A stretch of DNA of 39,905 nucleotides from Singulisphaera sp. GP187 (GTDB lineage Bacteria > Planctomycetota > Phycisphaerae > Phycisphaerales > SM1A02), in assembly GCA_945888705.1 (NCBI GenBank), contig CAMDAQ010000009.1:1-39905 (forward strand). The letters run 5' to 3'. Shown piece by piece: positions 1-33,805 of this stretch. Position numbers and translations under genes: made by a program. A model generated the notes under the pieces. It was not told the origin of the DNA and did no database searches. It saw nothing but the letters and a program-made list of their open reading frames with translations. The number at the start of each line of letters is the position of its first letter. The stretch's first letter is position 1.

Positions 1-1863
1 CCCGTCACGACCCTGCTCGCCATCGCCACCACAGCCATCGCCCACGACGGCATCGAGGAGCACGGTCGCCGCCATCGGCTGCCGTGGTTCCATGCGCAGT
101 CGCAGCAGGAGCGCGTCTACGGCCAGGGCGGCGAGGGCGGCCGGATGGACCAGCGATCGCTCGCCGGTTTCTCGCTGCTGCAGGATGGGTTCACCGTCAT
201 CGGCCTGCCCGACACGCAGAACTATGCCAGTGACTTCCCCCAGATCTTCACGGCCCAGACCAACTGGGTCGTCGCGAGCCGCGATGCGCTCGACATCCGC
301 TTCGTGTCGCACTACGGCGACATCGTCAACAATGCCGACCAGGTCCTGCAGTGGGATCGCGCGGATGTGTCGATGCGGGTGCTGGATGACTCGGGCCTTG
401 CCTACGGCGTGTGCCCCGGCAACCATGACCTGACGCCCAGCGGTGGATCGGGCCAGCCATTCATCCCGCAGGAGTATGTGGCGCGCTTTGGACCCGCGCG
501 CTTCGCTGGCGATTCCTTCTTCAAGGGTGGGAGCGCCAGCGGCCTGAGCAGCTACCAGTTCTTCACTGCCGGCGGCGTGGACTTCCTTGCGCTCCATCTC
601 GCCTGCGACATGCCGATCGAGGAACTTGCCTGGGCACAGGGCGTGCTCGATGCGAACAAGCGCCGATGCGTGATGGTCACCACGCACCGCTACCTGCAGG
701 ATGCCGAGGACTACACCGCGGGCGTGCCGCTCGTGTCATCGGGTCGCTATCCGTCGGTCTGGTACGGCGTCGAAGGCACGTACCACCCGCAGGGCATCCA
801 GAGCGAGGAAGCCTGGCAGTGGTTCCTGCGCAAGAACACGAACATCTTCCTCGTGAACTGCGGGCACTTCCACGAGGAGTTCCGGCAGGTCAGCCAGAAC
901 GTGGCGGGCAAGCCGGTGCACGAGGTGCTCGCCGACTTCCAGGACGATCCCAACGGCGGTGACGGCTGGCTGCGCATCATGAAGTTCGACACCGTCAGCG
1001 GCACGATCGATGTGGACACGTACTCGCCCACCCTTCAGGCGATCCGCACCGCCGACGAGAGCGACTTCACGCTCGCGGTCAACTTCGCGGACTACCGGTT
1101 GCCGATCGACCGCGGCTTCAAGGCCTACCAACAGGGCGTGAACGGATACCAGGGCACGCAAGACACCTGGGTGAGCCAGCAGAATCCCAACACGAGCTAC
1201 GGCAACAACGACACGCGCGTCTCCGACGACGACACCGCCAACTCGATCTTCACCGACTACCGCGGCCAAGCCCTCGTGCGGTTCGACGGCATCATCGGGC
1301 CGGGTCAAGTGCCCGCGGGCTCCACGATCAGCAACGCGACCTTGGTGATCGACGTGCCGGACGACATCGACACGCCCCTCTATAACCCGTCGTTCTTCGT
1401 GTACGAGGTGATCCGCAGTTGGAACGAGTCATCGACCTGGAATTCGCTCGGTGGTGGGCTCTCGCCGGGCGCCGACCTCGGCGCGCAGGTGGGCTCGTTC
1501 CTTGGCGACAGCGTCCCTAACGGTGACGCGATGCGCCGCATCAACGTCACGGCGGCGGTGCAGGCGTGGGCGAACGGCTCGCCGAACTACGGGCTCGCCA
1601 TCCTGCCGCAGATCATCAGCGGCAACGACGATGGCATCGAGATCCGTTCGAGCGAGAACGGCAATACGATCCTCCGCCCTCGGCTGGAGATCACCTATGC
1701 CGTCACGCCGACCGGCCCTGACCTCGACGGCGACGGCGTGGTGGGCGGCTCCGACCTGGCGGTCCTGCTCGGCGCGTGGGGTGGAAGCGGCGCGGCCGAC
1801 CTCGACGGCAACGGCGTGGTCGATGGCGGGGACCTGGCGATCGTGCTCGGCTCGTGGGGCTGA
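1..1863 (+). CDS. Secreted calcineurin-like metallophosphoesterase with DNRLRE-like domain and C-terminal dockerin-like tag (5' partial)
   Basis: The ORF track starts this gene at the internal ATG at 145, but the frame is open to base 1. The extra codons read as the end of a signal peptide (TLLAIATTAIA, then HDG), so the true start lies before the window and 620 residues are visible. Counting from base 1, metallophosphoesterase metal-site motifs follow: PDTQNY near residue 70, HYGD near 104, GNHD near 140, and NCGHFHE near 286. Residues of about 377-569 resemble the DNRLRE/CBM96 beta-sandwich found in surface proteins (NTSYGNN, AVQAWANG, SSENGN). The last 48 residues are two dockerin-like calcium loops ending in WG, without the cysteine pair present in the next two tagged genes. 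By family it would hydrolyse phosphoesters outside the cytoplasm; the substrate is unknown. Gene and fold are secure, exact specificity is not. Confidence 0.9.
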   Translation, partial: PVTTLLAIATTAIAHDGIEEHGRRHRLPWFHAQSQQERVYGQGGEGGRMDQRSLAGFSLLQDGFTVIGLPDTQNYASDFPQIFTAQTNWVVASRDALDIRFVSHYGDIVNNADQVLQWDRADVSMRVLDDSGLAYGVCPGNHDLTPSGGSGQPFIPQEYVARFGPARFAGDSFFKGGSASGLSSYQFFTAGGVDFLALHLACDMPIEELAWAQGVLDANKRRCVMVTTHRYLQDAEDYTAGVPLVSSGRYPSVWYGVEGTYHPQGIQSEEAWQWFLRKNTNIFLVNCGHFHEEFRQVSQNVAGKPVHEVLADFQDDPNGGDGWLRIMKFDTVSGTIDVDTYSPTLQAIRTADESDFTLAVNFADYRLPIDRGFKAYQQGVNGYQGTQDTWVSQQNPNTSYGNNDTRVSDDDTANSIFTDYRGQALVRFDGIIGPGQVPAGSTISNATLVIDVPDDIDTPLYNPSFFVYEVIRSWNESSTWNSLGGGLSPGADLGAQVGSFLGDSVPNGDAMRRINVTAAVQAWANGSPNYGLAILPQIISGNDDGIEIRSSENGNTILRPRLEITYAVTPTGPDLDGDGVVGGSDLAVLLGAWGGSGAADLDGNGVVDGGDLAIVLGSWG

Positions 1864-1968
1864 GCGGATCGGCTTGCGAGATGTGAGCGGAACGCTTACG
1901 AGCTCCTGACCCATCCCCATCACAGCCCTTGCATCGGACGCGAATACTCCTGACGGCCTGCGTGCCAC

Positions 1969-1974
1969 AAGGAG
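1969..1974 (+). promoter_or_regulatory. Ribosome-binding site fixing the PhoD-like start
   Basis: AAGGAG lies 5 nt before the ATG at 1980. It supports that start over the upstream start at 1929 in the ORF track, because a signal peptide begins at the same ATG. Confidence 0.75.
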
Positions 1975-1979
1975 AAACC

Positions 1980-3830
1980 ATGCTGCAGACAGCCTCGATC
2001 ACCGCGTCCGTCCTCGCTCTGTCTTCAACCGCCCTCGCCGGATCGGCCCTGCCCACCATCGCCGTGGGCGACGTCGTCGGTGGCCGAGCGGTCCTGATCG
2101 CTCGCCCCAGTGCCGGTACCGGCACGCTGACCATCGAGGTCGCCCGCGACAGCGCCTTCTCCGACCTCGTCTCGGCGTCGTCGGTTGATGTCGACAACGC
2201 CTTGGTCCCCGGCAAGATCGTCGTCAACGGTCTGCAGGCGGGCCAGTACTTCGCACGCGTGATCGATGGATCGCAGTCACGGACCGCGACCTTCACGATG
2301 CGCGCCACGCCGGTGGCGCAGGCTGATCGCTCCGAGGGTGCGCGCTTCGGCGTGACCGGAGACTGGCGCGGCGACGTCGGGCTGTTCACCGCCATCGGCA
2401 ACGCCGACGAGCGTGGCCTCGAGTTCTTCGTCAAGTTGGGTGACACGATCTACGGGGACGTGGCGAGCCCAGCCGTGCCCAATGGTCCGGCGGCGACCCT
2501 CGATGAGTTCCGCGCCAAGCACATCGAGAACTATGCACCGAGCTACGGCATCGACCCGTGGGGCGAGCTCGCCTCGGCCATGCCCACGTTCGCGATGATC
2601 GATGACCACGAGGTGACCAACAACTTCTGCGGTGGCGCGTTTGACGCGGCGAGCGGCTGGTACAACCAGGGCAGCCTCTACGTGAACGGACTGCAGGCCT
2701 TCGTCGAGCACAACCCGATGGTCGCCGCGACCTGGTCAGCCACGGGCAATCCCGCGTTCGACGCGCGCATGGCGGGCCGTCCCGACCTCTACCGTTCGTT
2801 CGCGTGGGGCGAGGATGCCGCCGTGTTCATGGTAGATGCGCGCAGCTTCCGTGACGCGAATCTCACGCCTGTCGTGAACCCGTTCGACCCGGCCGAAGTT
2901 GGAGCATTCCTTCAGGCGAGCTTCGATCCCACGCGCACGATGCTCGGGGTGCCGCAGGTCCAGCGGCTGCTTGCCGACCTTGCGCAGGCTCAGGCGCGTG
3001 GCGTGACGTGGAAGTTCCTGATGACGTCGATGCCGTTCCAGAACTTCGGACCGCTGGCGGGCGAGGATCGCTGGGAGGGCTACGCCGCCGAGCGCGCGTT
3101 CATCCTGCAGCAGGCCGCGGCGCTGGGAATCACGAACCTCGTCTTCGTGACGGCCGACTTCCACGGAACGATCGTCAACGACATCACCGTGCCGAACCCG
3201 GCGAACCCGTTCCAGCAGCTCTTCACGGGCGCGTTCGAGATCATCACGGGATCGGTCGCCTACTCGGCGCCCGCTGGCCCGACCTTCGCGCAGCTTGGCT
3301 TGGCGACCGGTGCACTGACTCCTCAACAGTTCGCGTTCTACCAGACGCTGCCGAATGCGTCGAAGGATGTGTTCGTGCAGGGCTTGCTCGATCAGGTGAT
3401 CGGTGGCTACGGCTATTCGCCGACCGGTATCCAGGATCCGTCGATCGACGCGACCTTCAGCGTCGGTGGTCCGGTCGCCGTGCACCACTATGGTTGGACC
3501 GAGTTCGATGTCGATGCCCAGACCAAGGACCTGACGCTGACGACCTACGGCGTCGATTGGTACTCGCCTGCCGAGGTCATTGCCGACCCTCAGGCAATCA
3601 TCGCCCGTCCCATCACCATCCGCCAGCAGTTCACCGTGAAGGCGCGTGGCCTGCCGGCCTGCCCTGGGGATCTCAACGGTGACCGCGTCGTCGACGGTGC
3701 CGACCTGGGTGCCATGCTCGAGTCCTGGGGAACCTGCGCAGGCTCCTGCGCCGCCGATCTGAACGGCAGTGGCAGCGTCGACGGCGACGATCTCGCCGTG
3801 CTGCTCGCCTCGTGGGGCGGTGACTGCTGA
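1980..3830 (+). CDS. Secreted PhoD-like alkaline phosphatase with C-terminal dockerin-like tag
   Basis: This 616-residue protein starts at the ATG at 1980, behind a clear AAGGAG; the 1929 start in the ORF track adds 17 residues ahead of the signal peptide. Residues 1 to about 22 are a signal peptide ending in ALAG. A fibronectin-like N-terminal part is followed by the PhoD metallophosphatase core: GDWRGD near 126, KLGDTIYGD near 151, IDDHEVTNN near 207 and VTADFHG near 389. The C-terminus (about 560-616) holds two dockerin-like loops (DLNGDRVVDGADL, DLNGSGSVDGDDL) joined by a segment with two cysteines (TCAGSC). PhoD enzymes are calcium/iron-dependent phosphomono- and diesterases that release phosphate outside the cell. 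It sits between two other exported phosphoester-hydrolase-like genes with the same tag, which suggests a phosphorus-scavenging group. A hairpin follows 30 nt after the stop. Confidence 0.92.
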   Translation: MLQTASITASVLALSSTALAGSALPTIAVGDVVGGRAVLIARPSAGTGTLTIEVARDSAFSDLVSASSVDVDNALVPGKIVVNGLQAGQYFARVIDGSQSRTATFTMRATPVAQADRSEGARFGVTGDWRGDVGLFTAIGNADERGLEFFVKLGDTIYGDVASPAVPNGPAATLDEFRAKHIENYAPSYGIDPWGELASAMPTFAMIDDHEVTNNFCGGAFDAASGWYNQGSLYVNGLQAFVEHNPMVAATWSATGNPAFDARMAGRPDLYRSFAWGEDAAVFMVDARSFRDANLTPVVNPFDPAEVGAFLQASFDPTRTMLGVPQVQRLLADLAQAQARGVTWKFLMTSMPFQNFGPLAGEDRWEGYAAERAFILQQAAALGITNLVFVTADFHGTIVNDITVPNPANPFQQLFTGAFEIITGSVAYSAPAGPTFAQLGLATGALTPQQFAFYQTLPNASKDVFVQGLLDQVIGGYGYSPTGIQDPSIDATFSVGGPVAVHHYGWTEFDVDAQTKDLTLTTYGVDWYSPAEVIADPQAIIARPITIRQQFTVKARGLPACPGDLNGDRVVDGADLGAMLESWGTCAGSCAADLNGSGSVDGDDLAVLLASWGGDC

Positions 3831-3859
3831 GACGTGGGTTCGAAACTTCGGTCGGAGCG

Positions 3860-3887
3860 GCACGGGCGTCCTTCGGGGCGCCCGTGC
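3860..3887 (+). terminator. Hairpin terminator with UUCG tetraloop and GCGTT tail
   Basis: A 12-bp GC-rich stem (one T-G pair) closes on a TTCG tetraloop 30 nt after the PhoD-like stop. It is followed by TGCGTTG rather than a run of T. Nearly the same element occurs at 7757-7784, and a related one at 38949-38980. Confidence 0.75.
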
Positions 3888-3981
3888 TGCGTTGCGATTC
3901 GGCAGTCGGCGATGCCGATTCTCATGATTCCCTTGTCCGATCTTGACCAATTGCTTGCGGATGGTGACGAGGCTCCCACCC

Positions 3982-3985
3982 GGAG
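3982..3985 (+). promoter_or_regulatory. Ribosome-binding site of the phytase-like gene
   Basis: GGAG lies 6 nt before the ATG at 3992, in the leader GGAGACCATC. The same leader words precede the protease gene at 32333. Confidence 0.65.
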
Positions 3986-3991
3986 ACCATC

Positions 3992-6931
3992 ATGATCACC
4001 GCTGCCATTGCGATCGTTGCCCTTGCCGGAACCCCAGACATCACGCTCGAGTTCCTAGGCCGGACCATCTCGGGCGGGTACGACGTCTCGGCCGCCGAGG
4101 TGGTGGCCTATGACCCTGCGACGCAGCGCGCCTTCGTGGCCAACGCCCTCGCGAATGCCGTCGACCTGGTCGACCTCTCCGACCCGTCTGCGCCGGTGCG
4201 AGTCGGCTCGATCTCGCTGCTTCCCTTCGGTGGTGGGCTGCAGAGCGTGGCGACCCGCAATGGACTCGTGGCGCTCGCGGTCGAGGCTATTCCGAAGACC
4301 GATCCCGGCAAGGTGGTCTTCATGGACACATCCGGCACGATCATCACGGCGGTGACCGTTGGGGCACTCCCGGATCATGTCTCATTCACGCCTGACGGGA
4401 CGCGGCTGGTCGTCTGCAATGAGGGCGAGCCCGACCTGAACTATGCCGTCGATCCCGAAGGATCGATCTCGGTCATCGACGTCAGCGGAACGACGATCGA
4501 GCAGTCGGATGTCGTGACACTGGGTTTCAACGGGCTCCCCGCAGGCACGGTCGATCCCTCGATCATCGCGTTCGGCGCCAACGCACCGACCCTCGCCCAG
4601 GACCTTGAGCCGGAGTACGCATCCGTGGCGTCCGACTCCCGGTCGGCGGTGGTGACCTTGCAGGAACACAGCGCCGTGGTCTTCGTCGATCTCACCATCC
4701 CTGCCATCACCGCCATCCGGCCGCTTGGCCTGAAGGACCATGCCGAAGGCGTACCGAGCCTGGTCACGGCCACGCTGTCCAGTGTTCCGTCGCTCGGCTC
4801 GACGGCCGCGGGCCAGGCGATCGAGCTCGGTGGCTTCAGCGGCCTCTGGCTCGACTCCATCAATCCAGCCACCGGTGTGATCACGTTCCTCGCCAATACG
4901 GATCGTGGACCGAACTGCGAACCGGTGAACGTGGATGGCGATCCGGCGCTCGAGCGCCCGTTCCCGTTGCCGGACTTCCAGCCGCGCGTCTGCACACTGA
5001 CGTACGACCCGTCGACCAATGCAGTTGCGTTGGCGGGAGAGATCCTCTTGCGCAAGCCTGACGGATCCCCGCTGACTGGCCTGCCCAACGTGCTCGGTCA
5101 GTCTGCCGGTCTGGCGAACACGGACGAGCAGCCGTGCGATCTGCGGGGCAATCCCATCGCGCTCGATCCGCTGGGTGCGGATCTCGAGGGCATCGTGCGG
5201 ACCAGTGATGGGTCGCTCTGGCTGTGCGATGAGTATCGCCCCTCGCTGTTCCGGTTCGATGCGACCGGCCTGATGCTGGCCCGCTACGTGCCTCTAGGCG
5301 CCAATGCGTACGGGAGCACGTTGGGCACCGAGGCATTCCCCGCGGTCTACGCGCAGCGGCGCGACAACCGCGGCTTCGAGGCGATCGCCGTCTGGAACGA
5401 CCGCGTCTACTGCTTCGTGCAGAGCCCCCTCGACAATCCCGACGTGGCCAATGACGCGAACTCCAAGGCATCCCGGAACATCCGGATTGCCGTGTTCGAT
5501 CCCTCGACCGAGACGGTCGTCGAGGAGTACCTCTACGTGCTCGAAGGCGGAGCAAGCGACAAGATCGGTGATGCCTGTGCGTCCGGCCCCGGCCGATTCC
5601 TGGTGATCGAGCGCGACAGTGCCGTCGGCGCCTCGAGCCTGAAGAAGATCTTCGAGATCGATCTTGCGGGGGCAACGGACCTCTCGACGCTTCCCGCCAG
5701 CGTGACCGGTCCGGGCGGCACGCTCGACCGAATGACGTCGGCCCAGCTCGCCGCCGCGGGCATCGTCCCGGTGAGCAAGTCCGTCCGTGTCGATCTTGCT
5801 GCCGCCGGCTACGCCGCCATCGGCGACAAGGTGGAGGGACTCGCGATGCGCGATCGATCCACGCTGTTCGTGATCAATGACAACGACTTCCAGATGCAGG
5901 GCACGTTCGACCCTTCGACCGGCTTGCTGACACGCAATCCCTCACCCGTCGACTCCGTGCTCGGCATCATCACCTTTGGTGGCAATGGGATCGACCCTAC
6001 GGACCAGGATGGTGGCAACATCATTCGCGCGTGGCCGGTGTTCGGCGCGTACATGCCCGATGCAGTGGCGAGCTTCTCGGCAGGCGGTCAGGACTACTTC
6101 GTGACCGCCAACGAGGGCGACGCCCGCGAGTGGGGAAGCTTTACCGACGGCACGCCTGTCAGCACCGCGACGGTGGTGCTCGACCCGCAGGTCTTCCCCG
6201 GCCGAGCCTGGCTGAAGGGCAACGCGCGTCTGGGTCGCCTGCAGGTCCGGAAGGACCTTGGGGACCTTGATGGGGACGGCGACTACGACCGGCTGGTCGC
6301 CTTCGGGGCACGCAGTTTTTCGATCTGGAATGCGCAGGGCGATCGGGTCTGGGACTCCGGCGACCAGTTGGAGCAGATCACGGCGGCTCGCTTCCCAGCG
6401 AACTTCAACTGCAGCAACACCAACAACTCCCGCGACAACCGCAGCCGGCAAAAGGGGCCTGAGCCGGAAGGTGTGACGGTCGGAACCGTGGCAGGCAAGC
6501 AGTACATGTTCGGTTGCCTTGAGCGTGTGGGTGGCGTCATGGCGTGGTGCATCGACGATCCTGCCGCACCGATCTTCCAGGACTACGTGAATCCCCGTGA
6601 CTTCACCCAGTTGCCCTTCCTTGGCAACGCTGGGGACCTCGGTTCCGAGGGGCTGGCATTCGTACGCGGCGATGACTCCCCCAACGGCAAGCCGCTGGTC
6701 CTGGTGGCCAACGAGGTCAGCGGGACGCTGTCGGTGCTCCAGGTCAACGTGTCATGCTCAACCGTTGGAGACCTGAACGGCGACTGCGCCATCGATGGCA
6801 CTGATCTCGCCGTCCTGCTGGGGGGCTGGGGCCCCTGTGTCCCGGGTGAGGCCTGCCCGGCCGACCTCGACAGCAACGGCCTCGTGGACGGGGGAGACCT
6901 GGCTCAGTTGCTCGGAGTTTGGGGCCTGTGA
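3992..6931 (+). CDS. Secreted choice-of-anchor I / esterase-like phytase-family protein with dockerin-like tag
   Basis: This 979-residue protein starts at the ATG at 3992 with a short hydrophobic start (AAIAIVALAG) that could be a signal peptide. Residues of about 20-260 look like the first part of a choice-of-anchor I beta-propeller (VANALANAVDLVDL, VVCNEGEPDL). Residues of about 265-670 resemble the esterase-like activity of phytase family (GGFSGLWLDS, FLANTDRGPN, DLEGIVRTSDGSLWLCDEY, NRGFEAIAV). Propeller motifs return near 690-890 (YFVTANEGDAREW), so the esterase-like part appears inserted into the propeller. The last 58 residues form the dockerin-like pair with a cysteine-bearing linker (CVPGEAC). 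Family knowledge suggests a calcium-dependent phosphoester or ester hydrolase, but the substrate is unproven. It follows the PhoD-like gene by 161 nt, beyond a terminator, so it probably has its own promoter. Confidence 0.88.
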   Translation: MITAAIAIVALAGTPDITLEFLGRTISGGYDVSAAEVVAYDPATQRAFVANALANAVDLVDLSDPSAPVRVGSISLLPFGGGLQSVATRNGLVALAVEAIPKTDPGKVVFMDTSGTIITAVTVGALPDHVSFTPDGTRLVVCNEGEPDLNYAVDPEGSISVIDVSGTTIEQSDVVTLGFNGLPAGTVDPSIIAFGANAPTLAQDLEPEYASVASDSRSAVVTLQEHSAVVFVDLTIPAITAIRPLGLKDHAEGVPSLVTATLSSVPSLGSTAAGQAIELGGFSGLWLDSINPATGVITFLANTDRGPNCEPVNVDGDPALERPFPLPDFQPRVCTLTYDPSTNAVALAGEILLRKPDGSPLTGLPNVLGQSAGLANTDEQPCDLRGNPIALDPLGADLEGIVRTSDGSLWLCDEYRPSLFRFDATGLMLARYVPLGANAYGSTLGTEAFPAVYAQRRDNRGFEAIAVWNDRVYCFVQSPLDNPDVANDANSKASRNIRIAVFDPSTETVVEEYLYVLEGGASDKIGDACASGPGRFLVIERDSAVGASSLKKIFEIDLAGATDLSTLPASVTGPGGTLDRMTSAQLAAAGIVPVSKSVRVDLAAAGYAAIGDKVEGLAMRDRSTLFVINDNDFQMQGTFDPSTGLLTRNPSPVDSVLGIITFGGNGIDPTDQDGGNIIRAWPVFGAYMPDAVASFSAGGQDYFVTANEGDAREWGSFTDGTPVSTATVVLDPQVFPGRAWLKGNARLGRLQVRKDLGDLDGDGDYDRLVAFGARSFSIWNAQGDRVWDSGDQLEQITAARFPANFNCSNTNNSRDNRSRQKGPEPEGVTVGTVAGKQYMFGCLERVGGVMAWCIDDPAAPIFQDYVNPRDFTQLPFLGNAGDLGSEGLAFVRGDDSPNGKPLVLVANEVSGTLSVLQVNVSCSTVGDLNGDCAIDGTDLAVLLGGWGPCVPGEACPADLDSNGLVDGGDLAQLLGVWGL

Positions 6932-7058
6932 TCTTTGCGACATCTTGACATTGGCTGAACGTGCCGTGAGTGCCAAACCTCGATGCTTCTTCTGGTTGAG
7001 AGGGTCGACAGGGCCCCCGAGCGTCGGGGTGTGTCAAAGCAGTTCACCTTTCCCTTCC

Positions 7059-7072
7059 TGAGAGGACTCTCA
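7059..7072 (+). promoter_or_regulatory. Inverted repeat enclosing the ribosome-binding site of the LTD gene
   Basis: TGAGAG-GA-CTCTCA has 6-bp arms and ends 2 nt before the ATG at 7075. The purine-rich AGAGGA inside it is the only candidate Shine-Dalgarno sequence. If transcribed, the arms could mask the site. Confidence 0.45.
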
Positions 7073-7074
7073 CC

Positions 7075-7725
7075 ATGAAGTTTGCCTGCCTCACCGCCGG
7101 TCTCGTGGCTGTGGTTGCCACGTCGGCCCACGCCAGCATCCGCATCACCGAAGTCATGAGCTCGAGCAACGGTCTCGGCTCCCCGACGCCGGACTGGATC
7201 GAAGTCACCAACTACGGTTCGAGCGCGATCAGCCTTGCTGGCTGGCGCATCGATGACGGCTCGTTCAACTTTGCCGTGTCGGCTGCCCTCAACGGCATCA
7301 CCTCGATCGGCGCTGGCGAGAGCGTCATCTTCATCGAGTCGGCGGCCGGCGCCGGCATTGCGGGCTTCCGCAACCACTGGGGCGGCCTCGCGGGCCTCCA
7401 GGTCGGCTACTACTCGGGATCTGGCCTCGGCTTCTCGTCGGGCGGCGACGGTGCGTGCCTGTTCGACTCGACCAACGCGATCTTGAGCCAAGTCAACTTC
7501 GGTGCAGCCACGTCCGGCTCGTCGTTCTTCTACGGCTGGACCAGCGCTGGCACCCTTGACTCGACCTACAACGGCGTGGTCAGCACCGTCGGCAGCATCG
7601 GGACGCAGATTGGCTTCTCGTCGACCGGCGACACTGGCTCGCTTGGCACTGCCATCGGCGTTCCAGCCCCCGGCGCGCTCGCGCTTCTGGGCCTCGCTGG
7701 CCTCGCAGGCCGTCGCTCGCGCTGA
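7075..7725 (+). CDS. Secreted lamin-tail-domain (LTD) protein with PEP-CTERM-like sorting tail
   Basis: The 216-residue protein begins with a signal peptide (about 1-21, ending AHA). Residues of about 22-140 match a lamin tail domain: RITEVMSSS, then PDWIEVTNYG, then ISLAGWRIDD and GESVIF. The C-terminus (196-216) reads VPAPGALALLGLAGLAGRRSR in effect: a short proline motif, a hydrophobic helix and a terminal arginine cluster, which is the layout of PEP-CTERM sorting signals. Such proteins are thought to be cut and transferred to the cell surface by exosortase/archaeosortase enzymes; none is encoded here. LTD domains occur in nucleases and in structural surface proteins, and no catalytic domain is visible, so a structural role is more likely. 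It lies among genes that use the dockerin-like tag and is followed by a strong hairpin. Confidence 0.88.
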   Translation: MKFACLTAGLVAVVATSAHASIRITEVMSSSNGLGSPTPDWIEVTNYGSSAISLAGWRIDDGSFNFAVSAALNGITSIGAGESVIFIESAAGAGIAGFRNHWGGLAGLQVGYYSGSGLGFSSGGDGACLFDSTNAILSQVNFGAATSGSSFFYGWTSAGTLDSTYNGVVSTVGSIGTQIGFSSTGDTGSLGTAIGVPAPGALALLGLAGLAGRRSR

Positions 7726-7756
7726 GCGTCGGCTCGACGCAACGTCGCTTTGACTC

Positions 7757-7784
7757 GCACGGGCGTCCCTCGGGACGCCCGTGC
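7757..7784 (+). terminator. Near-perfect hairpin terminator with GCGTT tail
   Basis: A perfect stem of 12-13 bp with a CTCG loop lies 32 nt after the LTD stop and is followed by TGCGTTG. It almost repeats the element at 3860-3887. It also argues against the 7750 start in the ORF track for the next gene, because that start would place the hairpin inside the coding region. Confidence 0.8.
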
Positions 7785-7791
7785 TGCGTTG

Positions 7792-9777
7792 ATGGGTTCT
7801 CACCGACCTGCGATGATCGCCGGCATGCTCCTTGCCGCCGCCCTCGCTGTCGCGTCGTCGCACGTTGCCGCTTCGCAGTCCCCCAAGCCATCGACCACGG
7901 TCTTCGTGGCGCGCGAGGTGATCACGATGGACCCAGGCTGGCCCACGGCCACCTGCGTGGCGGTGCAGGACGGTCGCATCATCTCCGTGGGGCGCACGCT
8001 CGATGACCTCAAGCCATGGCTGACCGCAGCGTCGGCCGGCACGGTCACGATCGACGAGACGTTCAAGGACAAGGTGCTCGTGCCAGGTTTCATCGAGGCG
8101 CATGGCCATCCGCTCGTCGGGGCGATCGCGCTTGCGCAGCCGTGCCTCTCCAACATCCCGATGCCCAGTCCGTACGGCCCGGGCTTCCCCGGCGTGAAGG
8201 ACATCGCGGCCGTGAAGGCGGCGATCGTGGGGCAGCTCGCCGCCACCAAGGACAGCAGCGACCCGGCGCTTTTCTGGGGCTACGACGTCATCGCGATGGG
8301 GCGCCACCTGGACGCGGCCTGGCTCGATGCCATCGATGCCAAGCGGCCCCTGATCGTGTGGGATGCCTCGGAGCACTTCGTCTACGCCAACACCGCGGCC
8401 ATGGCCAAGCGCGGCGTGACGAAGGATGCGCTGGCGGTCACTGGCGTGATGGCCGGGGCCGATGGCCTGCCCAACGGGCAGTTCCTGGGCACTTCGGCGG
8501 CGACGTGGTTCCTGGCGCGGATGGTGCAATCGCTCCTCACGCCGGAGCAGTTGCCCGGGATCATGCAGTACCTCGTCGATCTGGGCTGGCGCAACGGCGT
8601 CACCACCACGAGCGAGATGGCGCTCGGCCAGATCGCCGGCGTCGAGCGCGAGGCAGCACTCTTCCAGTCGTTTTTCCACGATCCGCGCGTGCCGCTGCGC
8701 TGCGTGGCGATCACTGCCGCGAGCGTGGCGCGCGACGCTGATGGTGCGCCGGACACCGCTCGCGTGCGCGTGCTCGAGGAATCGAGCAGCGACAAGCTGG
8801 TCTTCCGTGGCGTGAAGTTCTTTGCCGATGATGCGTTCCTGCCCTTGGGCATGGCCGTGGAGCAGCCGGGCTACACCGATGGCCGAAAGGGCCTGTGGAT
8901 CACGAAGCCCGAGGACATGGTGGCCACCTACCGCCCGTGGTGGGAGGCCGGCTTCCACCTGCACACGCACACCAACGGGAATGCTGGCGTGGATGCCGTG
9001 GTTCGCGCGCTCCGCGGCCTGCAGGAGGCGAAGCCGCGCTTCGATCATCGGTTCACGGTCCAGCACTACGGGATCTCGACGCCGGAGAACGCGCGTGACC
9101 TGGCCACGCTTGGTGGCTTGGCCAGCGTGAATCCGTACTACCTGCACAACCGCGCCGATCTCAACGTGCCGTACCTCGGCACGGACCGCGCGGAACTCTC
9201 CTCCCGCCTGGGCACGCTGGTCGGTGCCGGCGTGGTGACGGCCATGCACACCGACACGCCGGTCTCGCCGCCGATCCCGCTCGAGAGCATGTGGATCGCC
9301 GTGAATCGCATTGGCCGATTCAGCGGGAAGGTGCTCGGCGCAGGGGAGCGCGTGAGCGCGATGCAGGCCCTGAAGATGGTCACGATCGATGCTGCCTACA
9401 CGCTCGGGGTCGAGGACCGTGTGGGGAGCATCCGCACGGGCAAGCTCGCCGACTTCACGGTGCTGGCCCGCAGCCCGCTTGCCGTCGAGTCCATGGCGAT
9501 CCGCGACATCCCGGTGTGGGGCATCGTCGTCGGTGGCGTGAAGCACCCGGTCACGGACATCACGCCGCGCCCGGCCGTGAAGGCCGCGGCGTGGGGCACG
9601 GAGCCGATGGCGCCGCAGCGTGCTCCGCGCGCCTTCGGTGGCCGCTATGCCAACGCAGCCGCGCTCGAGGATCCGCAGGCACTCTCACGGCATCTGGCGG
9701 GCTGCTCGATGGAGTTCTGGCGCACGATGGCGCGCGAGCAGGGGCCGCTCCTGATCCTGAAGCCCGCAGAAGACTGA
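7792..9777 (+). CDS. Exported YtcJ-like amidohydrolase (amidohydrolase 3 family)
   Basis: I place the start at the ATG at 7792 (661 residues); 7813 is an alternative, and the 7750 start in the track would translate through a terminator hairpin. The N-terminus (MGSHRP, then IAGMLLAAALAVASS) is a signal peptide. The composite metal-dependent hydrolase fold is shown by PGFIEAHGHP (HxH metal site), the strand motifs FHLHTHTNG and FTVQHYG, and the late MHTDTP. The C-terminal sandwich part includes DRVGSIRTGKLADFTVL, a common amidohydrolase ending. YtcJ relatives hydrolyse amides or similar bonds, with substrates mostly unknown. There is no dockerin-like tag, unlike its neighbours. No Shine-Dalgarno sequence is visible. 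It converges on the next gene with a 38-nt gap. Confidence 0.88.
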   Translation: MGSHRPAMIAGMLLAAALAVASSHVAASQSPKPSTTVFVAREVITMDPGWPTATCVAVQDGRIISVGRTLDDLKPWLTAASAGTVTIDETFKDKVLVPGFIEAHGHPLVGAIALAQPCLSNIPMPSPYGPGFPGVKDIAAVKAAIVGQLAATKDSSDPALFWGYDVIAMGRHLDAAWLDAIDAKRPLIVWDASEHFVYANTAAMAKRGVTKDALAVTGVMAGADGLPNGQFLGTSAATWFLARMVQSLLTPEQLPGIMQYLVDLGWRNGVTTTSEMALGQIAGVEREAALFQSFFHDPRVPLRCVAITAASVARDADGAPDTARVRVLEESSSDKLVFRGVKFFADDAFLPLGMAVEQPGYTDGRKGLWITKPEDMVATYRPWWEAGFHLHTHTNGNAGVDAVVRALRGLQEAKPRFDHRFTVQHYGISTPENARDLATLGGLASVNPYYLHNRADLNVPYLGTDRAELSSRLGTLVGAGVVTAMHTDTPVSPPIPLESMWIAVNRIGRFSGKVLGAGERVSAMQALKMVTIDAAYTLGVEDRVGSIRTGKLADFTVLARSPLAVESMAIRDIPVWGIVVGGVKHPVTDITPRPAVKAAAWGTEPMAPQRAPRAFGGRYANAAALEDPQALSRHLAGCSMEFWRTMAREQGPLLILKPAED

Positions 9778-9815: not shown

Positions 9816-11714
9816 TCAGGGTGCGCAAGGTCCCCAGGCCGACAGGAGCAAGCCGAGATCGGCACCATTGACCGTGCCATCGCCATTCAGGTCGCCGATG
9901 ACGGATCCTTGCTGCCCTGAACTCGCCCAGTTCGAGAGAACGACGCCCAAATCCGCGCCATCGACCGAACCGTTGCCGTTGAGGTCAGCGACACAACCGC
10001 ATGGGGCGCTCGAACTCCCGGCGCTCGTCCACGACGGCGCGTGCACGATCTGGACCAGATCGAACTCCGCCGATGACACGCCCATGGCCGTCATGCGGAG
10101 GGCGATCGCTCCCGCGGGTCCAACCAGCGCTGGTGCATCGATGGGACCAAGCCATGCGGATGATGGCACCCCGGCATCGGACGAGATGGTGCCGATGCTT
10201 CGCCACGAGTTGGCCTGATCCCGCAGAGCGAGATGCGTCGTCGCGCCTTCCGGTGCGGTCCACTCGACCGCCACCCACAGCACGCCTCGATCGGCGCACT
10301 CGTCCGGCTGCTGTGCCGTGGCGTGCACGATGAGGTCGATCCCGCTGGCATCCGAAGTCAGGGCACACGGCAGACGATCCGCGCTCGCCAGCCGCGCGAC
10401 GGCATCAGGGCAAGCGGAGCCGGACAGCACTTCGACCGAGGTGATCGTTGGCGACCAGACCGCATCGATCGACTCGGTGACGCTGGTCCATGTCCCTGCC
10501 GGAGCGGAGGGCCAGAGCATGAACTCATCGATCCCTCGGCTGCGGAAGAGCGCCATGATCCTAAGGAACTCCGCGTCCGAGTAGGCGCGATTGGTCGGCG
10601 GGGCTTCGCCAAAGGGCAGCGCGATCCCCGGAAGCGTGACCCACGGCGTGATCGTGGCTGGATCGGCACCGCCGAACGAGTGCAGGCAGGCATCGAGGTT
10701 GGCGCGGTGCAGCCGCATCTGTTCGTCCATGAACGGCAATGCGCCATCGACGAAGGTCTCTCCAAAGACATAGAAGGCAGGCGCCTGCAGGTCGCCGCGA
10801 CCGACCCACGATGAACGCATCCAGCCTTCGTTCCACCATTCGAAGTCGACATACTCGCGGCGGCTGCCATCAGGTTCCAGGCCGCCATCGAGCTTCATGG
10901 TCTGCGCAAACTCGCTGGACGCGCATGCAGGCCATGCGGCCCGGACACGGGAGTAGAAGGCCTGGTCGAATGCTCCCTCGACCGATTCGCGCATGATGCC
11001 GTCCCACCAGGCGCTCCACGCGCGGTTCACGGGATGGTCACGCGGCATGGATGCATCATGGGCCGGCGAGCCTGCTGCGGCGTAGAGCTCCGCCATCGTT
11101 CGCATGGTCGGCACGCCGCCGGGGTTCATCTCCAGCCGCTCGGTTGTCCAGCGCGGGTCCGCCATCATGGCGTCGAAGACCTGCAGCGGGGCCGTGCCCC
11201 AGCAGTCCCCGATGTTCGGCAGGTAGCAGAGTGCAGGCAGTCGCAGCTCGCTGTCCATGTGGAAGCGCGTCGGTGCGGGCACACCGTGCAGCGCCTGGCG
11301 CTGCTGGTAGCGAGCGATGAAGGCATCAGTCCAGTCCGACATGACGGCGACGCCTTGGGCGGTCCACGGGGTGCCACGGTTGAGATGGTCGGGCAGACCG
11401 GTGCCGACCATGGTGTCGAGTGGGTTGCCCACGAGCGTGCCACGGCCGAAATTGAGGATGGTGATCGCGACCTCACCCTCGCCGAGCCCGCGGGCCAGGA
11501 TGTCGTTGCAGACTTGGTCCGCCGTGGACTGGGGATCCGCGGTTGGTGCGATCCAGATGTTGATCAGCGCGGTGAGCGATGGGTGGTCCGCTGCGGCCCC
11601 CTCCGGCGCGGACCAGCACCACACGCCTGGCGTGTCAGCGTGACAGGCCAGGCCAGCAACCATTGAGCAGGCGCTTGCGATGAGCGAATGGAGTCTTAGT
11701 GCCCGGAGCGACAT
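9816..11714 (-). CDS. Secreted protein of unknown function with dockerin-like tag, possible glycosidase-like fold
   Basis: A 632-residue protein with a signal peptide (LIASACSMVAGLACHA). I do not recognise the family. The central region (about 30-420) has the rhythm of an alpha/beta barrel, with acidic or aromatic residues at likely strand ends: FHMDSELRLP, YVDFEWWNEGW, FYVFGETFVDG and GIDEFMLWPS. This would suit a glycoside-hydrolase-like enzyme, but that is inference from pattern only. Residues of about 425-570 may be a beta-sandwich accessory domain. The last 60 residues form two dockerin-like loops (DLNGNGSVDGADL, DLNGDGTVNGADL) with a linker lacking the cysteine pair. It is transcribed toward the amidohydrolase and stands alone on its strand. 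Confidence 0.85.
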   Translation of the reverse strand: MSLRALRLHSLIASACSMVAGLACHADTPGVWCWSAPEGAAADHPSLTALINIWIAPTADPQSTADQVCNDILARGLGEGEVAITILNFGRGTLVGNPLDTMVGTGLPDHLNRGTPWTAQGVAVMSDWTDAFIARYQQRQALHGVPAPTRFHMDSELRLPALCYLPNIGDCWGTAPLQVFDAMMADPRWTTERLEMNPGGVPTMRTMAELYAAAGSPAHDASMPRDHPVNRAWSAWWDGIMRESVEGAFDQAFYSRVRAAWPACASSEFAQTMKLDGGLEPDGSRREYVDFEWWNEGWMRSSWVGRGDLQAPAFYVFGETFVDGALPFMDEQMRLHRANLDACLHSFGGADPATITPWVTLPGIALPFGEAPPTNRAYSDAEFLRIMALFRSRGIDEFMLWPSAPAGTWTSVTESIDAVWSPTITSVEVLSGSACPDAVARLASADRLPCALTSDASGIDLIVHATAQQPDECADRGVLWVAVEWTAPEGATTHLALRDQANSWRSIGTISSDAGVPSSAWLGPIDAPALVGPAGAIALRMTAMGVSSAEFDLVQIVHAPSWTSAGSSSAPCGCVADLNGNGSVDGADLGVVLSNWASSGQQGSVIGDLNGDGTVNGADLGLLLSAWGPCAP

Positions 11715-32332: not shown

Positions 32333-33805
32333 ATGACCACTGAGCGCTTCGCCGTCACCTGCATCGCCTCGCTCCTTGCCGCCAGCGGCGCTCTCGCCCA
32401 GACCCCGTGCGAGGAGCGCGTGGCGAGCGATTGCTTCTACTCCGGGATCTATCCCTTCAACGCGATCACGCAGCTCTTCGTGGAGCAGGATGATGGCAGC
32501 CTGAATGCGTACGGCACTGGGTTCCTCGTCAGCCAGCATTGCGCGCTCACCAACGGCCACTGCGTCTACAAGCGCGGCGAGCAGCACTTCTTCTACAAGG
32601 ACATCTGGATGATGCCCGGTGCTTGCCGCAGCGCATCAGGCCTGAGCTTCAACCTGTTCGGGATCCGCGAAGCAATGATCAAGGGCACCAACACCAAGTG
32701 GACGGACTTGTCCTACGACTGGGAGACGGAAGTCGACTACGGCTCGCTGCGCTTCGTCTGCCCATTCGAGGAGCTGACGACGTTCCTGCCGCTCTGCTTC
32801 GATGTCAGCCCGTCTTCGGTGCACATGGCGGGCTATCCACTCGAGGAGATTCCCGACTCGGAAGATGTTTTCAATCAGTGGATCGCGTACGGCGACATCA
32901 TCACGCAGTGGTCGCGCGTGCTTCGGTACGAGGCGCACTCGACTGGCGGCGCGAGCGGCAGCCCGGTCTGGCGGTGGCGCTCCGGCCAGTCGCTGCTCGA
33001 GGTCATCGGTTTCAATTCGACCCACTGGGACTCGTGCGATGGCGGCGGACCGCGGCTGGTCGCGCAGAACATGGACCTGATCCGTGGCTGGATGCAGTGG
33101 GAACCCAGTGCTGCGCAGCGATCGGCGGCTGGCTGTCCGGCGATTCCAGGCCTGACGCTTGCTGGCCTGATCGGCTTCTTCGAAGCCAATCCCGGCAAGT
33201 TGCTCGATGCGCAGGGACTCGGCGTGGTCGATCCGATCGCGCCGCCGCCGACGGGTCCAAGCCGACGCACCATGCAGATCATCGAACGTGGCTTCTACGA
33301 GTGGGTCGAGTTCGATCTGCAGCCGGGTCAGCCCGGCTCGGTGCGCTTGATGCAGCTCCTGAAGGCTCCGGGTGTCGACCTCATCGGCACGCCATGGACC
33401 CCGGGCACGCCCTTCAACCCGCAGGCTTCACAGCAGGGCTGGATGTCCGCGTCGAAGGCTCGCGCGTTGCTCTCGGGGTCGGCAGGTCGCGCCTCGCCGC
33501 CCGTCACCGGAGTCCGCAAGCGCATCGTCGATGCGCAGGCGATCGCGCTGGCGCAGCCGGCTCCCGGCACTCCACCGACCGGCAATCCGAATCCGACGCC
33601 CGACGTGCCGACCGGGGTCGGCAGCGCATTCTGTGCCGCGGACTTCGATGGTGATGGCCTCGTCGCTGGCGGTGACATGGCCATCATGCTCGGCTCGTGG
33701 GGTCCATGCCAAGGGCCATGCGTCGCCGATCTCGATGAAGACCTCGCTATCAGCGGTGGCGACCTTGCGTTGCTGATCGCTGCGTGGGGCCCGTGCGCAC
33801 CCTGA
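32333..33805 (+). CDS. Exported trypsin-like serine protease with dockerin-like tag
   Basis: The 490-residue protein begins with a signal peptide (TCIASLLAASGALAQ). The V8/trypsin-like triad is visible: His in ALTNGHCVYK (near residue 66), Asp in EVDYGSLRF, and Ser in STGGASGSPVW (near 208). Residues of about 260-440 form a low-complexity, proline-rich region without a recognised domain. The last 55 residues hold two dockerin-like loops (DFDGDGLVAGGDM and DLDEDLAISGGDL) joined by a CQGPC linker; the second loop departs from the consensus. It would cut proteins at the cell surface or outside. The tag shared with the phosphatases 25 kb away suggests a common sorting route. Confidence 0.88.
   Translation: MTTERFAVTCIASLLAASGALAQTPCEERVASDCFYSGIYPFNAITQLFVEQDDGSLNAYGTGFLVSQHCALTNGHCVYKRGEQHFFYKDIWMMPGACRSASGLSFNLFGIREAMIKGTNTKWTDLSYDWETEVDYGSLRFVCPFEELTTFLPLCFDVSPSSVHMAGYPLEEIPDSEDVFNQWIAYGDIITQWSRVLRYEAHSTGGASGSPVWRWRSGQSLLEVIGFNSTHWDSCDGGGPRLVAQNMDLIRGWMQWEPSAAQRSAAGCPAIPGLTLAGLIGFFEANPGKLLDAQGLGVVDPIAPPPTGPSRRTMQIIERGFYEWVEFDLQPGQPGSVRLMQLLKAPGVDLIGTPWTPGTPFNPQASQQGWMSASKARALLSGSAGRASPPVTGVRKRIVDAQAIALAQPAPGTPPTGNPNPTPDVPTGVGSAFCAADFDGDGLVAGGDMAIMLGSWGPCQGPCVADLDEDLAISGGDLALLIAAWGPCAP

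Follow-up and report, generated by a model that had tools for sequence, protein, structure and literature searches.

Exported phosphohydrolase-like proteins with a shared dockerin-like tag form a probable accessory surface cluster in one planctomycete lineage

Introduction

Why do three phosphohydrolase-like genes lie head to tail in a planctomycete genome, all ending in the same short dockerin-like tag? The genes open a stretch of 39,905 nucleotides (hereafter the window), which is contig C9 of the Singulisphaera sp. GP187 assembly (G000; 2.36 Mb in 186 contigs). A preliminary description had seen in them a phosphorus-acquisition module, in which three unrelated folds are displayed by one tag. 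From a survey of 181 genomes of the family, representing 45 genera, we favor with moderate confidence a reading of the locus as a lineage-specific accessory block of phosphoester hydrolases at the cell surface, flanked by two conserved genes.

Results and Discussion

Positions 1-6931 of the window hold three plus-strand open reading frames, all with hydrophobic N-termini. MPE (1..1863, +) is an exported calcineurin-type metallophosphoesterase with a DNRLRE/CBM96 domain; the PhoD-like phosphatase (1980..3830, +) is also exported, its start being taken as the ATG at 1980 and not the mechanically called TTG at 1929; and CHAI_PHY (3992..6931, +) is a choice-of-anchor I/phytase-like (esterase-like) tandem β-propeller. 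Reading frames, N-termini and family matches thus bear out the original impression of three consecutive, head-to-tail exported hydrolase-like genes. Downstream follow LTD (7075..7725, +), a secreted protein that has a lamin-tail domain, a PEP-CTERM-like C-terminus and no dockerin tag, and the amidohydrolase AMID (7750..9777, +), the right-hand flank of the accessory block. Two further tagged proteins lie within the window, one without a phosphatase family match (9816..11714, −) and a fifth at 32333..33805 (+).

The 5′ end of MPE is cut by the contig edge. Its ATG is at position 5291 of contig C131, 18 bases before window base 1, and 147 identical bases are shared by the end of the C131 sequence and the start of the window; the join is supported by the unbroken same order in a congener, G017. 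Another tagged gene, UP_TAG, lies on C131, 145 bp upstream of MPE, extending the tagged run to four genes. UP_TAG is not a phosphatase, and has relatives in 41 of the 45 genera. A scan of 1600-7200 for sigma-70 promoters and terminators was uninformative.

The PhoD-like protein matches PF09423 with 158.6 bits (cut-off 27) and scores 69 bits against the canonical PhoD equivalog NF058638, below its cut-off of 1000. PhoD proteins fall into two subfamilies with either Cys or Asp at an iron-ligand position (PMC4223295), and the alignment places ours in the aspartate subfamily: Asp stands at the position of the B. subtilis PhoD iron ligand Cys-180. In a residue numbering that begins at window base 1983 (alignment A6), D127 (the Cys-180 position), D154, Y157, D207/D208, N213, D392 and H394 are invariant in nine PhoD-like orthologues. 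The protein resembles B. subtilis PhoD (PDB 2yeq) in its PF09423 domain, in the Asp, Tyr and Asn ligand positions, and in the late D-x-H pair; it differs in having Asp for Cys-180, Asn or Asp at the N272 position, and a C-terminal dockerin-like tag, which the Bacillus protein lacks.

MPE has no Metallophos match in Pfam in its G000 form. Its orthologue in G152 (66% identical) passes PF00149 with 23.9 bits (cut-off 21.5), the catalytic motifs PDTQN, GD..NN, GNHD, TTH and GHFH are invariant in ten orthologues, and a low-confidence structure model (pLDDT 58) matches pig purple acid phosphatase (PAP) 1ute with probability 1.00. From the orthologue, the metal motifs and the modeled fold we assign MPE to the calcineurin-like metallophosphoesterases; like purple acid phosphatases it has the fold match and invariant metal motifs, but in G000 it lies below Pfam detection and is fused to DNRLRE/CBM96 and the tag. 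MPE and PhoD belong to one metallophosphoesterase/PAP-like superfamily (PMC4223295), and the three proteins therefore do not represent three unrelated folds, as had been supposed.

CHAI_PHY matches choice_anch_I (PF22494, 431 bits) and Phytase-like (PF13449, 157 bits). It is a tandem β-propeller protein, and “phytase-like” is here the name of a family, not an activity: comparison with solved phytases by sequence and fold found no match. We rejected a phytase assignment based on structure, since the hits of the model are generic propellers and their TM-scores are low.

Each of the three proteins ends in two F-hand-like loops (D-x-N/D-x-D-G-x-V-D/N-G-x-D-L-x-x-L-L-x-x-W-G), confirming the shared dockerin-like pair; the tags lie at 1714..1863 in MPE, 3660..3827 in the PhoD-like gene and 6761..6925 in CHAI_PHY, all on the plus strand. 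The nearest named tags by sequence are the GC-type dockerin NF041540 and Dockerin_1 (PF00404), which likewise are C-terminal duplicated calcium-loop tags on many unrelated exported proteins; ours differ in that they mostly fall below the cut-offs and their loops end in W-G. Against NF041540 (cut-off 29) the MPE tag scores 19.0 and the PhoD tag 24.9, and CHAI_PHY has no match; the PF00404 cut-off is reached by the PhoD tag only, and only as the whole reading frame.

A profile built from six tags gave 109 matches in G000, and removal of five doubtful cases left 89 tagged reading frames, of which 39 match NF041540 at E ≤ 0.01. Most carry the tag exactly at the C-terminus. Among their products are peptidases of the reprolysin and subtilisin types, lectins, propellers of the FG-GAP and sugar-dehydrogenase types, and PETase-like hydrolases; choice_anch_I is found a single time, and because the Pfam tally covers only the 25 commonest families, rarer tagged phosphatases may be missed. 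A tag carried by some 89 proteins of the most varied families, of which five are in the window, does not mark out a phosphorus module, and this part of the earlier proposal falls. In this planctomycete lineage, that proteins have a dockerin-like tag in common tells us nothing of their pathway, a caution against over-reading such loci. Recent tag duplication inside the locus was considered and rejected: the other tags are 49-63% identical to that of MPE, and every orthologue that was checked keeps its tag, clustered or not.

Adjacent same-strand tagged pairs number 14 in G000 (13 plus UP_TAG-MPE), against about two expected by random placement if 2,150 genes are assumed; tagged neighbors are thus normal in this genome. 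Examples are found at L137, L155, L157, L160, L162, L165 and L196, and contig C24 carries a second run of three.

Of the 181 genomes, 22 have an orthologue of the PhoD-like protein, 22 one of CHAI_PHY and 31 one of MPE, the last number including a partial MPE in G102. All three genes adjoin only in G000 and G017, members of one genus, with full synteny in G017; a near-identical relative (G101) has pieces of the same order. Elsewhere the genes separate. The MPE-PhoD pair occurs in G070 and G128; G128 and G081 have CHAI_PHY next to LTD, but on other contigs; MPE, PhoD and CHAI_PHY each lie on separate contigs in G045 and G081, far from contig ends in G045; and the scattered orthologues of two other genera keep the same kind of tag. 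LTD follows CHAI_PHY in three genera. In another congener, G096, the site is empty: AMID directly follows UP_TAG, 186 bp apart.

The three families nevertheless occur together even where their genes are unlinked. PhoD and CHAI_PHY share 16 genomes (genus-level Fisher p = 0.0014), with p = 0.0011 for PhoD/MPE and p = 0.016 for CHAI_PHY/MPE, tests at genus level that do not fully correct for phylogeny. Conservation of the order in relatives accordingly has two sides: it is kept in G017 and the genes co-occur (p 0.001-0.016), but elsewhere they are scattered.

Other genes vary around these units. An ABC transporter and HlyD-type pair (L110:3462-7002; L205:4717-8134) lies upstream of UP_TAG in G017 and immediately behind MPE-PhoD in G070 and G128, and was not seen at that place in G000. 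In the congener G102 (L203:3-1902) a glycosyltransferase-like gene stands between UP_TAG and an MPE cut by the contig end.

G000 encodes PhoR, PstSCAB and PhoU on contig C45, whose edge cuts off phoB; in relatives phoB adjoins. Upstream of phoB in these relatives (L224, L226, L228, L235-L244) is a conserved direct repeat, TTCAC-N6-TTMAC, with an 11-bp period, which may be the Pho box of this family of planctomycetes. Like the Pho box of the Pho regulon it stands ahead of phoB and pstS as a direct repeat phased at 11 bp; it differs in its half-site from the E. coli CTGTCAT, of which the window holds no excess. A search of the window for the E. coli-type box gave four matches against 2.7 expected, one of them inside the PhoD signal-peptide region, and was set aside; a second repeat pattern had no match.

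We built a model from ten sites in phoB promoters of relatives; its p-values are guides only, because the sites were few and chosen by eye, related genomes contributed several sites, and shuffling was by mononucleotide. The model finds sites before pstS in G070 (20.0 bits) and, weaker, in G054, and before MPE in G081 (18.1), G193 (19.5) and G187 (21.4). Apart from the phoB training sites, this pstS site of G070 and these three MPE sites are the only ones of at least 18 bits in about 0.97 Mb scanned, and a model retrained without G017, G054 and G070 again gave MPE and pstS the highest ranks among 522 upstream regions. By genus, MPE has strong Pho-box-like sites in g25 (4/4) and weaker ones in g42 (2/2) and part of g45. 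Some genomes also have one before the phytase-like gene.

At the locus itself the picture is different. No Pho-box-like site precedes the three genes in G000 (MPE p 0.25, PhoD p 0.40, CHAI_PHY p 0.39) or in G017 (p 0.14, 0.68 and 0.30, respectively). Between CHAI_PHY and LTD, at 6934..6960 (+), is a Pho-box-like element of three half-sites in 11-bp phase, TTTGC-GACATC-TTGAC-ATTGGC-TGAAC. Such a site precedes LTD in 6/6 orthologues from three genera (shuffle p 0.0005-0.02), at the corresponding position in G017, G128, G081, G099 and G187 (orthologues at L110, L206, L119, L349 and L350); the G000 site is weak on its own (p 0.02), and its support comes from the orthologues. LTD here, and in three other genera MPE, may thus be under PhoB control; before MPE, PhoD and CHAI_PHY at the locus the anticipated Pho boxes are wanting.

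The cluster that we favor would be composed of two small units, MPE-PhoD and CHAI_PHY-LTD, which are apart in a sister genus and come together here downstream of UP_TAG. Each enzyme would be exported via the Sec route, bearing a duplicated calcium-loop tag that is the lineage's general mark of exported proteins, present clustered or not. MPE and PhoD probably hydrolyze extracellular phosphoesters, CHAI_PHY is a propeller protein of putative activity, and freed phosphate would enter via PstSCAB. The phosphorus theme is partly supported, because the families co-occur and relatives carry Pho-box-like sites; as a phosphorus-acquisition module the locus is weakened by an order confined to one genus and by locus genes without a site. 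Against our favored reading stand the lack of a Pho box at the three genes in this genus, the presence of the non-phosphatase UP_TAG, and the clustering of tagged genes genome-wide.

This last habit could by itself make three adjacent phosphohydrolases a coincidence of an ordinary neighborhood and not a functional unit. The 14 same-strand pairs, the three-gene run on C24, the scatter of the orthologues in two genera and the want of a shared Pho box at the locus are all as such a coincidence would have them, but it does not account for families that co-occur even unlinked, nor for MPE-PhoD and CHAI_PHY-LTD adjacencies kept across genera; we consider it rather unlikely. The enzymes might alternatively remodel phosphorylated surface or environmental polymers, such as polysaccharide phosphodiesters, instead of scavenging. 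Teichoic acid is the presumed target of B. subtilis PhoD. Specialized targets have been suggested for members of the PhoD family (PMC4223295), the DNRLRE/CBM96 domain of MPE is of a carbohydrate-binding type, and the locus genes have no Pho box; the Pho-box-like sites before MPE, strong in g25 and weaker in g42 and part of g45, speak against it, and polymer remodeling is improbable in our view.

The tags could also dock the hydrolases onto surface cohesin proteins, as in the planctosome, a hypothetical structure proposed to hold cohesin-docked peptidases in freshwater Phycisphaerae (PMC6461901). G000 shares with that model its dockerin-tagged exported enzymes and a cohesin-HYR protein on contig C130, which seems to run on into a dockerin-bearing fragment on C68 (L163). 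Adjoining it is a 1516-aa divergent LTD/P-domain/MopE/TSP3 protein; the two, at L201:3-839 (−) and L201:952-5502 (+), match the hypothetical planctosome adaptor and anchor (PMC6461901). The enzymes here differ in being phosphohydrolases, and cohesin is rare among tag-bearing relatives: G000 has one clear cohesin protein against about 89 tags, and its relatives occur in 22 of the 181 genomes. In G017, with the same tagged cluster, none was found, only two weak cohesin matches elsewhere; G054 and G096 have no cohesin match. The cohesin-HYR protein is therefore unlikely to be the general tag receptor, and we give a planctosome-type scaffold little credence. A phosphate-scavenging variant, with tagged phosphohydrolases on a cohesin scaffold and a PhoB-controlled LTD protein as phosphate-responsive surface partner, seems to us highly speculative.

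Searches of the literature for a Pho box in planctomycetes and for any connection between lamin-tail proteins and the Pho system returned nothing relevant. By-products of this work are a Pho-box model, open to testing, in a lineage for which we found none described, and the specific prediction that phosphate starvation elicits a response of an MPE family and of LTD, the lamin-tail-domain protein that has no tag. In G081, a 428-aa protein whose gene precedes MPE in the same orientation (L120:10430-11713) also has a Pho-box-like site; it looks porin-like by eye, an identity that we rejected as it has no family or structure match.
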